Positions 47,428 to 55,532 of a DNA stretch of 59,282 nucleotides are shown one piece after another. The notes under the pieces were generated by a model. It saw nothing but the letters and a program-made list of their open reading frames with translations. It was not told the origin of the DNA and made no database searches. Source of the stretch: Flammeovirgaceae bacterium (GTDB lineage Bacteria > Bacteroidota > Bacteroidia > Cytophagales > Cyclobacteriaceae); assembly GCA_012032815.1 (NCBI GenBank), contig JAAUQD010000004.1, positions 1 to 59,282 of the forward strand, given 5' to 3'. Each line of letters begins with the position of its first letter. Within the stretch, counting starts at the first letter, position 1. The position numbers and the translations under genes were made by a program.

Positions 47428-48750
47428 ATGAACTGGATTTCTCTATTATCTTCAAATCGTCTCGACCAAAAAAAGCCCGTTTCAGGACCTTCACGAAGCA
47501 TTTTTGAACAGGATTTTTGACCGGATCATTTTTTCACATCCGTTTAGAAGACTTCAGGATAAAACACAGGTACATCCACTGCCCGAACATGACTTTGTCC
47601 ATACCCGCCTTACTCACAGTCTCGAAGTGTCAAGTGTTGGTCGCTCGCTGGGCAAAAAAGTTGGAGAGGTCATTATCGAGCGTCATCCGAAACTCAAAAA
47701 GGATTATTCTTTATTTGATATTGGAGCCGTTGTTGCATCAGCATCCCTGGCTCATGATCTGGGCAATCCTCCATTCGGTCATGCCGGAGAAAATGCCATA
47801 TCAGATTATTTTATTCAACAGAATTCGGCATCGCTGATTAAGACTTCTGTATCTGAGGCAGAGTGGCAGGATTTGATTCGTTTCGAAGGGAATGCTCAGG
47901 GGTTCAGAATCATTAACAGTTATCAATACGGATTGAAACTTTCTTTGGCTGCTCTGGGTGCTTTTACCAAGTATCCCTGCAGTGCTTTACATTCCAATCG
48001 GAAAGGAGAAAAGAAGAGCCAGAAGAAATTTGGATTCTTTCAAACAGAGGCCCCGTTGTTTGAAAACCTGGCAACTCAACTCGAAATTGAAAAAGTACGG
48101 GAAGGAGTGTGGCTCCGGCATCCACTCGCTTTTTTAGTAGAAGCGGCAGATGACATTTGTTATCATATCATCGACCTTGAAGACGGATGCCGCTTAGGAT
48201 TGATTTCGTTAAATGAGACCATCGAATTATTGGCCGATATTCTCAAAACTGATTTTGACCAGAACAAACTGGATAAACTTTCCAGCCAAAATGAAAAGAT
48301 AGCGGTGCTTAGGGCAATGGCTATTAATAAATTGATTGATGAATGCGCTGCTGTATTTTTGGATTATGAAGAGGAGATATTGGCCGGCAAATTCGATGTG
48401 GCTTTAACCGATCATTGTCTCAGTAAAGAATCATTGTCTGCAATTCAGCAGGTATCTGTTGCCAAAATCTATAAATCACGTCATGTTGTTGAGATTGAGG
48501 CTGCCGGACATGAAGTGTTGCCCGGTCTCATGGAAGAGTTTGTTCGTGCCGGTGAGCATATCTTTCGAATGGTAAATCCAAGAAATACGACAATTTGATG
48601 CTCCTTTTGCCTCCAGAAGTCAGGGCCGCTATCGGGCAAAGCACATCATACTATGGCATGTTGCGCTTTATTATTGATTTTGTGTCGGGAATGACAGACC
48701 GATACGCCCTCTCGCTTTATCGCAAGATTAAAGGAATCTCTCTTTCCTGA
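47428..48750 (+). CDS. dgt: dGTP triphosphohydrolase (two frameshifts)
   Basis: A restored 440-residue HD-domain dNTPase that splits dGTP to deoxyguanosine and triphosphate. The raw frame shows only the middle. Removing one T at 47514-47518 adds the N-terminus MNWISLLSSNRLDQKKP and joins FEQDF to DRIIFSHPFRRLQDKTQV. Adding one A at 48583-48585 adds the C-terminus KYDNLMLLLPPEVRAAIGQS, then FVSGMTDRYALSLYRKIKG. The HD motif is HTRLTHSLE with AHDLGNPPFGHAGENA. The 152 bases after the raw stop therefore belong to this gene and are not an intergenic space. Confidence 0.92.
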
Positions 48751-48928
48751 GTAGAATCAGCCAGGCACTACCCATATAATTAATAAGAGCGGGGTGACCA
48801 AAAACTTCAAAATTCATTAGATTTGCCGCTTACTTTAGACCAGTCCCCGATCCAGCTGGCATATTGGATAGCAAAATCGATCTACTGGTTAATGTTAGAA
48901 GATAACCTTCATGTACCTGAACTAAACC

Positions 48929-51346
48929 ATGTGGACGCAGCTAGCTCATTTTATAATTAAGTACCGGCTATCGCTTTTCATTGTAATAGGGCTATTCACC
49001 ATTTTTATGGGGTATCATGCTTCGAAGGTAGAAATGAGCTACGATTTTCGAAGTACCGTACCGGCCAACGACCCCGAGATGATTTATTTCGAAGAGTTCC
49101 GAAAGCAGTTCGGAGAGGATGGCAACATTGTAGCCGTAGGTCTTAAAGACAGTTCGATATTTCAAATCGAAAACTTTCTCCAATTCCGGCAGCTTTGCTT
49201 TGAGATAAAAAAACTGGAAGGTGTAAATGATGTCATTGCCCTTCCTTTGATAAAAATGATTGAAAAGGATACAGCCAATACCAAGTTTGTATTGACTGAT
49301 ATTTTCCTGATAAAATCCGGGATCAGCAGGTGTTGGATAGTTTGCTGGACATTGCACAGAATCAGCGCTTTTACATCGGGCAGATTGTAAATGAGAATAA
49401 TGGAGCTATTGCCATGCTCGTTTCCATTCGTAAGGATGTTCTCAACTCATCCGGAAGAATAGATTTAACCAATAACATTATTTCGCTGGGAGAAAAGTTT
49501 AGTTCATCGACTAAACATTCAACTTCACTTTGCAGGGCTACCGTTTGTTCGATCGGTGATCGCAGATCAGGTGGGTTCGGAACTGAGAATGTTTTTGCTC
49601 ATCTCCGTTCTGATTACAGGAATAATACTGCTCATCTTCTTCCGGTCTTTTCGTGCGGTTATCTTTCCGCTGATCGTTATCGGAATTGTGGTAGTGTGGG
49701 TAATGGGAACTATCGTTTTGCTGGGCTTTAAGATTACACTACTAAGCGGAATAATTCCCCCGGTCATTGTGGTTATCGGTATACCCAATGCCGTGTACCT
49801 GATGAATAAATACCATGCTGAATTTGCCATGCACGGCAACAAAATGCTGGCCATTAGCCGTGTAGTGCGAAAAATCGGAATGGCTACACTGCTGACTAAT
49901 CTTACCACTGCCATCGGATTTTTAGTTTTACTGACAGCCGATATCACCGTACTTCGTGAATTTGGAATTGTAGCCGGACTGAATGTGATGGCTACGTTTG
50001 TTGTAAGTCTAATTCTGATTCCTGGTGTTTTTTCCTGGATGCCTCCTCCCTCGGCAAAGCACCTCCGTCATTTAGATCTAAAAGGTATTGATAAGATTTT
50101 GTCTGGAATTGATCTGATCGTTCACCGGAATCGACCAATGATCTATGGAGTCACGATATTAATAGTTGCCATAACGGCTGTAGGAATTTATAAAATGAAT
50201 GCCCTTTCCTACATGGTTGATGATCTGCCGGAAGAAAGTACAGTTAAAAAGGATCTTAAATTTTTCGAAGAAAACTTTAGTGGAGTAATGCCGCTGGAAT
50301 TTATGGTTGATACCGGCAAGCGCAGAGGGGTATTGGATGTTAAAAATCTGAAAAAGATTGAGGAGTTCGAGCAGTTTTTAGCCAGCCATCGCGATTTGTC
50401 ACAACCTGTGTCGCTGGTGAGTTTTGTCAAAGCTGCGAAGCAGGCGTTTTATAATAATAATCCAGCGCGATACTCATTGCCGGACAATAGAGAGCGCGCA
50501 TTTATCCTTCGATACATGAGGGATCAATCCGATAATTCCGGGCTATTCAATTCTTTTGTTGACTCCACCATGCAAAAAATGCGAATCTCACTGCAGGTAG
50601 CGGATGTTGGTTCCGATAAGATGGATTCACTGGTCAATCAGGTAATCATTCCTGGACGAGACAGCATTTTTGCCGATACTGAAATCAAAGCCACTATAAC
50701 CGGAACAACCCCGCTGTTTATCAAGGGCAATAAATTTCTGATTAGAAATCTGAGAGGGAGTTTGTTGTTGGCATTTGGTTTAATAGCCGTTACCATGGGA
50801 TTGTTATTCACCAATTTCAGAATGATCATTATTTCTCTTATTCCAAATATGATCCCTATGATGATTACGGCAAGTATGATGGGCTTTTTGAACATTCCAC
50901 TCAAACCCAGCACGGTAATTATTTTCAGTATAACGTTTGGTATCTCTGTGGATTATTCAATTCATTTTTTAGCCAAGTACAGACAGGAATTGCAGGCCAA
51001 CCGGTTCTATGTTCCGCTGGCAGTGAGTACCAGTATTCTGGAAATCGGATCGAGCATGTTCTATACTTCGGTAATTCTCTTTGCAGGTTTTATAATTTTT
51101 GCTTTCTCCTCGTTTGGTGGCACCATTGCTTTGGGAATTCTAACCTCATGTACACTGTTAATTTCCATGATTACAAACATGATATTATTGCCGGCTCTGA
51201 TCTTGTCATTTGACAAAGCCAATTATAAGCGGGGTGAGCGATCACTCATTGATGATGTTGATCCCGACTACTACCTGGAGGAACGAGATAAAGACATCGA
51301 TCTGAACCGGATTAAAATCAGTAACAGGCACCCGGCCGCTGAATAG
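48929..51346 (+). CDS. MMPL/RND family transporter (two frameshifts)
   Basis: A restored 805-residue RND-superfamily exporter with two units, each with a first membrane segment, a periplasmic loop and a five-segment bundle. The sequence starts MWTQLAHFIIKYRLSLFIV and shows FRSFRAVIFPLIV in the first bundle, and FGISVDYSIHFLAKYRQEL in the second, the MMPL core with its acidic residue. One T more at 49302-49305 gives DIFPDKIRDQQVLDSLLDIA. One A fewer at 49513-49515 gives SSSTNIQLHFAGLPFVRSVIADQV. Substrates (lipids, hopanoids or drugs) are not predictable. A TAGATTTG box lies at 48818-48825, about 100 bases upstream; the 178-base spacer holds nothing else. Confidence 0.9.
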
Positions 51347-51364
51347 AGTACAGCATAATAAGTA

Positions 51365-51372
51365 TAGATTTG
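51365..51372 (+). promoter_or_regulatory. Candidate -7 box for ileS
   Basis: TAGATTTG is an exact TAnnTTTG, 19 bases before the ATG at 51392. Confidence 0.4.
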
Positions 51373-51391
51373 CGCAGAATTTCAATTGACC

Positions 51392-54300
51392 ATGACAGAA
51401 AAGTACAGGGAAAGCAAGGAACTTGATTTGGCGAGGATTGCCGATGAAGTTTTGGCATTCTGGCAGCAGGAGAAAATTTTTGAAAAATCAGTATCAAACC
51501 GTGAAGGAAGCGAATCATTCACTTTTTATGAAGGTCCGCCATCGGCCAACGGAACACCGGGTATTCATCACGTCATGGCAAGAACCGTCAAGGATATTTT
51601 TTGCCGATATAAAACATTGGAGGGTTACCAGGTAAAACGCAAGGGAGGATGGGATACCCATGGTCTTCCTGTTGAGTTGCAGGTTGAAAAGCAGCTTGGC
51701 ATTACCAAAGATGACATCGGACGGTCGATCAGCGTGGCCGATTACAATCAGAAATGCCGGGAGACGGTCATGAAATATAAAGATCAGTGGGATGATCTTA
51801 CTCAGAAAATGGGATACTGGGTAGATCTTGACAATCCATATGTCACGTTCGATCGTAAGTATGTTGAATCGGTGTGGTGGATTCTTAAAGAACTTTATAA
51901 AAAGAAACTTCTCTATAAAGGATATACAATTCAACCCTTTTCTCCGGCAGCAGGAACGGGACTAAGTTCACATGAATTGAATTTGCCGGGCTGCTATAAG
52001 GATGTAAAGGACACATCGATCGTAGCGCAGTTTAAGGTGATCAGAAATTCGAAATCTGAATTCCTGTTTGGATCGGAGAGCGAGGAGGTAAGGGTATTAG
52101 CATGGACAACAACACCATGGACACTGCCGGCTAACACAGCACTCGCTGTAGGTGAGCGAATCGACTATATTCAAGTCAATACGTTCAATCCATACACGCA
52201 TAAGCCGGTAAAAGTTATTCTAGCCAGGAATTTGTTATCAAAATATTTCTCTGCAAAAAACGAAAGTGTAAAAATTTCTGATTACACACCGGGAGATAAG
52301 ATCATTCCATTTGAAATCACGAATGAATTTAGAGGGAGTAAGCTAGTTGGCATTCACTACGAACAGCTTATGCCTTACCTTTCTCCATTGTATGATGTTG
52401 AAAACGCATTTCAGATTGTTGCCGGTGATTTCGTAACTACTGAAGAGGGTACGGGTGTGGTGCATACATCACCCACGTTTGGGGCAGATGACTTTAGAGT
52501 AGCTAAGCAACATAACATTCCTCCGCTTACTATTAAGGATGAAACTGGAGTTGAGCTTCCGGTAGTTGATCGTCATGGACGGTTTATTGATGAGATTGGA
52601 AAAAATTAGCGGAAGGAGTTTCGACATATAAAATCAAAACACATAAGACTTTATCGGCTTCCGATTTTTATGTAAAGAACTATACCGATGAAGATGAATC
52701 ACATCCGGATTATAAAACTACGGACGTCATCATATCCATTATTCTCAAAGAGGAGAACAAGGCTTTTCGTGTAGAGAAATATGAACATTCATATCCGCAT
52801 TGCTGGCGCACTGACAAGCCTATTTTATATTATCCTCTCGATTCATGGTTTATAAAAACCACGGCTTGTAAAGACAAAATGGTTGAACTTAATAAGACCA
52901 TTAACTGGAAACCGGAATCAACAGGTGCCGGGCGCTTTGGCAATTGGCTTGAAAATCTTGTGGATTGGAATTTATCCCGCTCCCGATTTTGGGGAACACC
53001 GCTTCCCATTTGGCGAACGAAAGATGGAAAAGAGGAAAAATGCATCGGGTCGTTGGAGGAATTGAAGAAGGAAGTACAGTTATCTGTTAAGGCGGGCCTG
53101 ATGACTCAGGAGATTGATGAAAGCTTCGATCTTCATCGTCCCTATGTAGACGATATTATTTTAGTGGGTTCGGATGGGAAGGCAATGCATCGCGAACAAG
53201 ATCTGATTGATGTTTGGTTTGATTCGGGGGCTATGCCGTACGCCCAATGGCACTATCCGTTTGAAAATAAAGATGTTTTCGAAAAAAGTTTTCCGGCTGA
53301 TTTTATTGCTGAGGGAGTAGATCAAACCAGAGGATGGTTTTTTACACTTCACGCCATTGGAGCAATGCTTTTTGAAAGCGTAGCTTTTAAGAATGTAATC
53401 TCAAATGGACTGGTGCTGGACAAAGAAGGCAACAAGATGTCCAAAAGCAAAGGTAATGTCGTAAACCCGTTTGATACCATCTCCACCCACGGTTCGGATG
53501 CAGTGCGGTGGTACATGATTGAAAACGCACCGCCCTGGGAAAATTTAAAATTTAATGCTGACGGAATCTCAGAAGTAAAACGGAGGTTTTTTGGAACGTT
53601 GATCAATACGTATTCCTTCTTTGCGCTGTATGCAAACATAGACGGGTTCGTTAAAGATGAATTGGACAATGTGCCACAAAATAAACTAACCAATTTGGAT
53701 AGGTGGATTATTTCCAAACTACAACGATTAATTGTGGAGGTGTCGGAAGCGTATTCGGATTATGAGCCTACAAAAGCCGCCCGTGCCATCCAGGAATTTG
53801 TGAACGATCATTTATCAAATTGGTATGTACGATTGAATAGAAAGCGTTTTTGGCAACCTTCATCACGCGGTGAACTTTCAGAAAATAAAAAAGGTGCTTA
53901 CGAAACACTGTTCACGTGCCTTTTGGTAAACGCGCAGTTAATATCCCCGATCGCTCCGTTTATTTCAGACTGGTTGTATAAAGCGCTTACGGATAATGTC
54001 AGGGGCAAAGCAGTAAAAAACAATACTCCGCTTAGGTTTGAATCGGTTCATCTGACCGATTTGGTAAAACCTGAAGAGAAGTATATTGATGTGGATCTTG
54101 AAATATCAATGGACTATGCTCAGCGGATTTGTTCGCTGGTACACTCCATTCGCAAGAACGCCCAGATCAAAGTCAGGACCCCTCTCCAAAAAGTGCTGCT
54201 TCCTGTGCTTGATGATCAATTTTCGAAACGAATTCGTGAAGTGGAAGAAATTATTAGAGCAGAAGTAAATGTTAAGGCCATCGAGTACATTGACGATGCC

Positions 54301-54825
54301 TCAGGCCTGTTGGTTAAAAAGGCGAAGCCAAATTTTTCAAAACTGGGTCGGCAATACGGTTCTAAAATGAAAGATGTGGCTGCGGTAATTGCAACCTTTG
54401 ACCAAATGGAAATAAATAAGCTGGAGAAAGAAGGATTGCTTTCTAAAGGTGGATATGAGTTTGCGATGGAGGATGTGGTGATTGGTTCTGAAGATATTCC
54501 AGGTTGGTCGGTAGCAACCGACAACGAGGTTACGGTTGCACTGGATATTACCATTACTGAGGAATTGAAGCGGGAAGGGATAGCCCGTGATTTTGTGAAT
54601 CGGATTCAAAATTTGAGAAAAGAGATGGGACTGGAAGTGTTGGATAAAATCGGTATTGAGGTAGAAAAAGACGGTGAGCTGGTCACAGCCGCACTGACCG
54701 AGTTTCATGAATATATAAGCAGTGAAACCCAGGCACTGAGTTTGGAGTTGAAAGAGAAGGTAAATGAAAGTACCGAAGTGGATATGGATGATTTCAAACT
54801 TCGGGTGAGGATACAAGTAAAATGA
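51392..54825 (+). CDS. ileS: Isoleucyl-tRNA synthetase with altered HIGH motif (frameshifted)
   Basis: A restored 1144-residue class I synthetase of the long, eukaryote-like IleRS2 type. The signature that normally reads P-H-x-G-H is P-G-I-H-H (Gly57-Ile58-His59-His60, bases 51560-51571), so the first histidine and the glycine have exchanged places. VLAWTTTPWTLPANTAL marks the editing domain, NKMSKSKGNVVNPFDT the KMSKS loop, and a long anticodon-binding region follows. The frame breaks at an A6 run (52600-52605); a seventh A joins DEIGK to KLAEGVSTYKIKTHKTLSASDFY and fills the missing 270 bases. The ATG at 51392 is favoured over TTG 51386. It overlaps lspA by four bases. Confidence 0.95.
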
Positions 54826-55532
54826 AATACGCAAAATATTTTTTAATTGTTCTGGCGGTTATTGCAATCGATCAAACCAGCAAACTGTTGGTTCATAAAT
54901 ACATGTACCTGCACGAGGAAATAAATGTAATGGGTGAATGGTTTAAGCTTCATTATTTATTAAATCCGGGAATGGCGTTTGGTATTCGATGGGAAAATGA
55001 GTTTGGAAAACTGGCATTGACTTTTTTTAGAATAGGAGCCATGATTGGAATCGGGTATTACTTAGTCCGATCTATCCGGAAAAATTACCACGTAGGGTTT
55101 CTCCTGTGCTTATCCTTAATTCTTGGAGGAGCCGTAGGAAACGTGATTGACAGCACCTTCTATGGAGTGCTTTTGGATAACTCACTTCCCGAATCAGTTT
55201 CACCTTGGTTTCACGGGCAGGTCATTGACATGTTATTTTTCCCCATTATGGATTTCTTCTGGCCAACATGGGTTCCGCTTATTGGTGGCGACTACTTTCT
55301 TTTTTTTAGCCCTGTATTCAACATAGCCGATTCAAGTATTTTCATTGGAGTTGCATTTATTCTTATTCTGCAAAAACGATTTTTTAAAGAGGATAAAATG
55401 GAAAGTCCGGTAGGATCATCCACTACAGTTCAAATGAACAATCAGCAAATTGATACAATTGCTCAGTCCACCATGGGTGAAGAAGGAAGGGAAACAGGAC
55501 CGTCATCTTCAGTCTCAATCGAACAACCATGA
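54822..55532 (+). CDS. lspA: Lipoprotein signal peptidase (signal peptidase II)
   Basis: A 236-residue LspA with four membrane segments, which cuts lipoprotein signal peptides after lipid attachment. The two catalytic aspartates are in GGAVGNVIDS and FNIADSSIF. IDQTSKLLVHKYM and YLLNPGMAFGI are further family motifs. A Bacteroidota-type insert of about 35 residues separates the aspartates. The 45-residue hydrophilic tail (after RFFKEDK) is extra compared with typical LspA and has no recognised motif. It overlaps ileS (ATGA), the classic ileS-lspA coupling, and serves the several lipoproteins in this window. Confidence 0.94.
   Translation: MKYAKYFLIVLAVIAIDQTSKLLVHKYMYLHEEINVMGEWFKLHYLLNPGMAFGIRWENEFGKLALTFFRIGAMIGIGYYLVRSIRKNYHVGFLLCLSLILGGAVGNVIDSTFYGVLLDNSLPESVSPWFHGQVIDMLFFPIMDFFWPTWVPLIGGDYFLFFSPVFNIADSSIFIGVAFILILQKRFFKEDKMESPVGSSTTVQMNNQQIDTIAQSTMGEEGRETGPSSSVSIEQP

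Follow-up and report, generated by a model that had tools for sequence, protein, structure and literature searches.

Among described enzymes, the closest counterparts of the gene analysed here are the IleRS2 enzymes in which the class I signature H-x-G-H is replaced by G/A-x-H-H. As far as the main text and Table 1 of Brkic et al. 2023 (Nat Commun 14:5498, PMC10485003) go, some IleRS2 carry this variant, stay active and exhibit mM Ki values for mupirocin; of 379 prokaryotic IleRS, 86 are G/AXHH IleRS2 and no IleRS1 has G/AXHH, the variant being inferred there to have arisen at least twice within IleRS2. Table 1 of that paper gives for Deinococcus radiodurans IleRS2 (ALHH) a mupirocin Ki of 6.6 mM that falls to 8.1 µM with HVGH (823-fold), while introduction of GVHH raises Ki from 0.20 to 35 µM in Thermus thermophilus IleRS2 and from 1.08 to 460 µM in Priestia megaterium IleRS2, the shift upon motif exchange in the three enzymes amounting to ~175- to 820-fold. 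According to the same text, GVHH insertion into the T. thermophilus and P. megaterium enzymes costs activity, up to tenfold, with kcat ~tenfold lower and KM for Ile ~fivefold higher in the P. megaterium mutant, and the third His is so positioned that it can replace the first one in function and, in a model, clashes with mupirocin. MIC and Ki values for IleRS2 bacteria and enzymes are spread over a wide range in the portion of PMC4861432 consulted. Regarding Bacteroidota, the string 'Bacteroid' is absent from the main text of PMC10485003, and the tree of that paper may well include the phylum; in the consulted parts of the literature searched, including PMC4861432, PMC8900306 and PMC11312133, no mupirocin measurement on any Bacteroidota IleRS or strain was found.

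In the window (the whole 59,282-nucleotide stretch of DNA analysed), positions 51560-51571 of the forward strand read GGT ATT CAT CAC and translate into Gly-Ile-His-His, residues 57-60 when numbering from the ATG at 51392; the surrounding sequence is PPSANGTPGIHHVMARTVKD. The tetrapeptide aligns without gap onto the HVGH of P. megaterium IleRS2 (8c8u, 8c8v, 8c9d) and of 1ile, whose sequence is identical to 1jzs, as well as onto GVHH in the P. megaterium mutant 8c8w, the top-ranked structure match. With D. radiodurans (ALHH) and Streptomyces griseus IleRS2, the window enzyme shares Gly or Ala at the first signature position, a hydrophobic residue at the second and His at the third and fourth. 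Among solved structures, those of P. megaterium (8c8u and 8c8v wild type, 8c8w mutant) match the two parts of the window gene best, ungapped through the motif, with the difference that the natural P. megaterium motif is HVGH, GVHH being there the product of mutation, whereas GIHH occurs naturally in the window gene. An earlier note on this DNA had described GIHH at residues 57-60 in the place of HxGH, in an unbroken frame ~1 kb before an indel, and had referred to published work on GxHH IleRS2 combining extreme mupirocin resistance with retained catalysis; translation and structure alignment agree with the former, no stop codon interrupts the frame between 51392 and its end at 52607-52609, and the published work, PMC10485003, does say so in its main text. 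A normal signature elsewhere in the gene, which would have spoken against this assignment, was looked for by scanning its whole length, and no H-x-G-H string was found in either the 5' or the 3' part.

As assembled, ileS is in two parts on the forward strand. The 5' part (51392..52609) comprises 405 codons plus a stop, its listed ORF starting 6 bases before the ATG, at a TTG, and the 3' part (open frame 52612..54825) encodes the C-terminal region as well as the remainder of the catalytic domain, KMSKS included, with an ORF from the ATG at 52879. TIGR00392 (ileS) is the best NCBIfam match for both, with 418.9 bits over profile positions 3-376 of 861 for the former, and 459.2 bits over positions 435-849 for 52879-54822 of the latter; each alone is below the whole-protein cut-off of 621.4 because the gene is split. 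Comparison with solved structures, whose IleRS1 and IleRS2 labels were taken from the text of PMC10485003 (for 1ile and 1ffy through the sequences they share with 1jzs and 1qu2, respectively), gave for the 5' and 3' parts 309 and 423 bits with 8c8w and 297 and 396 bits with 1ile, both IleRS2, versus 153 and 115 bits with 1ffy and 141 and 115 bits with 8c9e, both IleRS1. A further group of structures, including enzymes labelled cytoplasmic, reached 245-254 bits for the 5' part and 267-344 bits for the 3' part. With bit scores against IleRS2 structures roughly twofold to almost fourfold those against IleRS1 ones, the window enzyme is, as judged from its sequence, of type 2 and not of type 1.

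The distribution of the motif was then read in a phylum sample of 99 Bacteroidota genomes from 59 genera, some genera being sampled many times, by means of a TIGR00392 search; the phylum was assigned as Bacteroidota on the basis of the nearest named relatives and of the classification of Cyclobacteriaceae. An IleRS was found in all 99 genomes, over the cut-off in 98, the exception being the split window gene, and the motif as read from the DNA was GIHH in 73 (window included), GVHH in 26 and HxGH in none. The other 98 genes (GIHH in 72, GVHH in 26) comprise 30/30 loci returned with the search, 29 of them GIHH and one GVHH, and 68/68 further 5' ends, 43 GIHH and 25 GVHH; their frames span 1,048-1,261 codons, with a TAG inside the match in one genome (G124), and a two-piece match lying side by side on one contig (G114) was taken as one gene. 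Since the same swap is present in 98/98 other IleRS genes read, chance is excluded as its origin. Among matches listed at E <= 1e-80, and with no more than 8 candidates scored per genome out of as many as 13, TIGR00392 revealed no second IleRS in the sampled genomes. Fifteen extra TIGR00392 matches, all below the cut-off at 272-297 bits, proved to be ValRS, scoring 429-614 bits against the own ValRS and no more than 141 against the own IleRS. Among nearer relatives, an IleRS match was found in 56 of the 57 genomes besides the own one, the exception (G020) being 79% complete, and GIHH was present in 29/29 loci read of the 56 genomes with a match; in G028 and G054 the match is in two pieces, again adjacent on one contig and taken as one gene. 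Named relatives likewise showed GIHH in 80/80 loci (the best 80 of 574 confirmed relatives), the nearest of them being Cyclobacteriaceae and other Cytophagales MAGs, Spirosoma, Fibrisoma, Fulvivirga and Mucilaginibacter.

DNA patterns were also matched against 395 phylum genomes. The GxHH pattern has matches in 392 of them and in 370/370 of those of good quality, the genomes missed (G346, G393 and G409) being 88, 81 and 81% complete, respectively; 392/395 agrees with the genes read directly but is an upper bound because false pattern matches are included, and reliance is therefore placed on those genes. Among the places listed, one such match in the own genome (L121, contig C145) lies antisense to dapD and is a chance copy, a warning for motif counts made from DNA patterns alone, and three others (L127, L131 and L132) are not IleRS either. 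The HxGH pattern in an IleRS-like context, which fixes some flanking residues so that an unusual HxGH IleRS could escape it, matched in 15 of the 395 genomes, and all 15 places were read. Thirteen lie in frames reading FPPEPNG[FY]PH[IL]GHA, which we take to be the GlnRS/GluRS signature, and are not IleRS; the remaining two, L119 and L120, belong to frames of 75 and 157 aa that do not resemble a synthetase. None of the 15 places is an HxGH IleRS, and none aligns with the window ileS over its 5' part.

The frame of the window gene breaks at 52585..52620 (+), beside a run of A, so that the sequence exactly as assembled, split near 52.6 kb, would yield no whole protein; in 30/30 named relatives compared, the two parts adjoin in one frame. 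The assembly (2.78 Mb, 202 contigs, 84.8% complete) was searched for class Ia enzymes with PF00133, which returned the window IleRS together with one ValRS, carrying HMGH, one MetRS and one LeuRS, the latter as two matches on one contig. Neither TIGR00392 nor PF00133 found a second IleRS in this 84.8%-complete assembly, in whose missing part one could lie. With no other IleRS found, a genuine break should be lethal, so that the one seen here is most probably an assembly error. It leaves the motif untouched and is not taken against the membership of the native gene in the G/AXHH group.

The broken frame, taken together with the incompleteness of the assembly, might nevertheless suggest an ileS pseudogene, inactive or in decay and betrayed by its swapped motif, with a working IleRS encoded elsewhere. 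Considering that (i) the assembly yielded no other IleRS, (ii) each of the other 98 sampled genomes has the same motif in its single IleRS, the frames spanning 1,048-1,261 codons apart from the one TAG, (iii) the second signature motif is a normal K-M-S-K-S at 53434..53448 (+), in the context EGNKMSKSKGN, and (iv) the 5' part is 76-78% identical to its closest relatives over almost its full length, such decay is very improbable. A sequencing or assembly error might also be imagined at the motif itself, the same gene containing a probable indel error, but this is refuted because the same four residues recur in relatives from other assemblies (the 29/29 loci of the relatives search and the 80/80 named loci, sets that probably overlap partly), leaving an error at the motif with a negligible probability. 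The swapped motif is real, already a published variant and ordinary for Bacteroidota.

MupA and MupB are the staphylococcal mupirocin-resistant IleRS, and in this acquired resistance they are present as an extra copy beside the housekeeping ileS. They are related to the window enzyme, the NCBIfam MupA/MupB models matching both ileS parts, which could speak for an acquired or recently selected mupirocin-resistance gene, gained horizontally in this lineage in a MupA-like manner. On the contrary, the scores of these models, 294-296 bits for the 5' part and 416-430 bits for the 3' part, are together far below the family cut-offs of 1900 and are lower than those of TIGR00392 for each part, and the window gene differs from MupA/MupB in being single, the sole IleRS found in the assembly with no second one beside it. 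Furthermore, the same gene and motif recur in a conserved neighbourhood among relatives and throughout the phylum sample. In the window, the order dGTPase, RND-type exporter, ileS and lspA extends over 47504-55532; many of the 30 nearest named loci share it, which indicates a housekeeping locus passed on by inheritance. The lspA gene (lipoprotein signal peptidase, 54822..55532, +; NF011369 251.6 bits, cut-off 200) overlaps the end of ileS and follows it in all 22 compared loci, among the 30 named ones, that include the ileS end; an exporter gene lies upstream in 25/30 and a dGTPase gene in 16/30, some contigs being short. A horizontal gain is, on these grounds, very improbable, and the gene looks like the inherited housekeeping enzyme of the phylum.

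Altogether, the gene very probably encodes the housekeeping type-2 IleRS of an uncultured Cytophagales/Cyclobacteriaceae-like bacterium, bearing the published G-x-H-H signature. Its motif would be an old, fixed trait of the group rather than a resistance change acquired in this lineage. By analogy with the published enzymes, the third-position His may perform the catalytic task normally assigned to the first His and may also clash with mupirocin as the drug tries to bind, in which case the window enzyme would charge tRNA-Ile and yet be very insensitive to mupirocin. A Ki in the mM range together with activity is published for other G/AXHH IleRS2 in the main text of PMC10485003; catalysis, a mM-range Ki and cell resistance are predicted for the window enzyme from the IleRS2 of Deinococcus and Streptomyces and from the mutants of Thermus and Priestia. 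High mupirocin resistance is a sound prediction from homology. The earlier note expected this strain to be mupirocin resistant through its only visible ileS, and that expectation stands insofar as the gene is the sole IleRS found and of IleRS2 type, but not as a property particular to the strain, GIHH and GVHH being the sole forms in the phylum sample.

Beyond this locus, the one point worth keeping is that the swapped motif appears to be fixed throughout Bacteroidota. We consider it more probable than not that essentially all members of the phylum have GxHH as the fixed form of their single IleRS (99/99 sampled, the window included), that the phylum is intrinsically mupirocin hyper-resistant at the target, and that the motif dates from near the root of the phylum, long before any particular exposure to the drug and independently of it. 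Were this wider reading true, mupirocin insensitivity in Bacteroidota would be a built-in property of the housekeeping enzyme, and such an ileS encountered in a metagenome need not count as acquired resistance. It would also offer many natural enzymes whose class I signature is altered, useful for studying how catalysis proceeds when the first His is absent.

Two minor features of the locus and its relatives are also worth describing. The RND-type exporter gene at 48929-51346 is also split, into frames 48929-49390 and 49556-51346, and shows weak HAE3/HpnN model matches under the cut-off; its pieces share one frame in the compared loci holding both, one of which (L037) has its own break further along, and the split in the window suggests indel errors in this assembly. 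Finally, the fifth residue of the second signature is variable among 103 loci, with KMSKR in 76 and KMSKS in 27, the latter including L001, which is a ValRS locus, and L002, L003 and L007, all three copies of ileS from the window itself.
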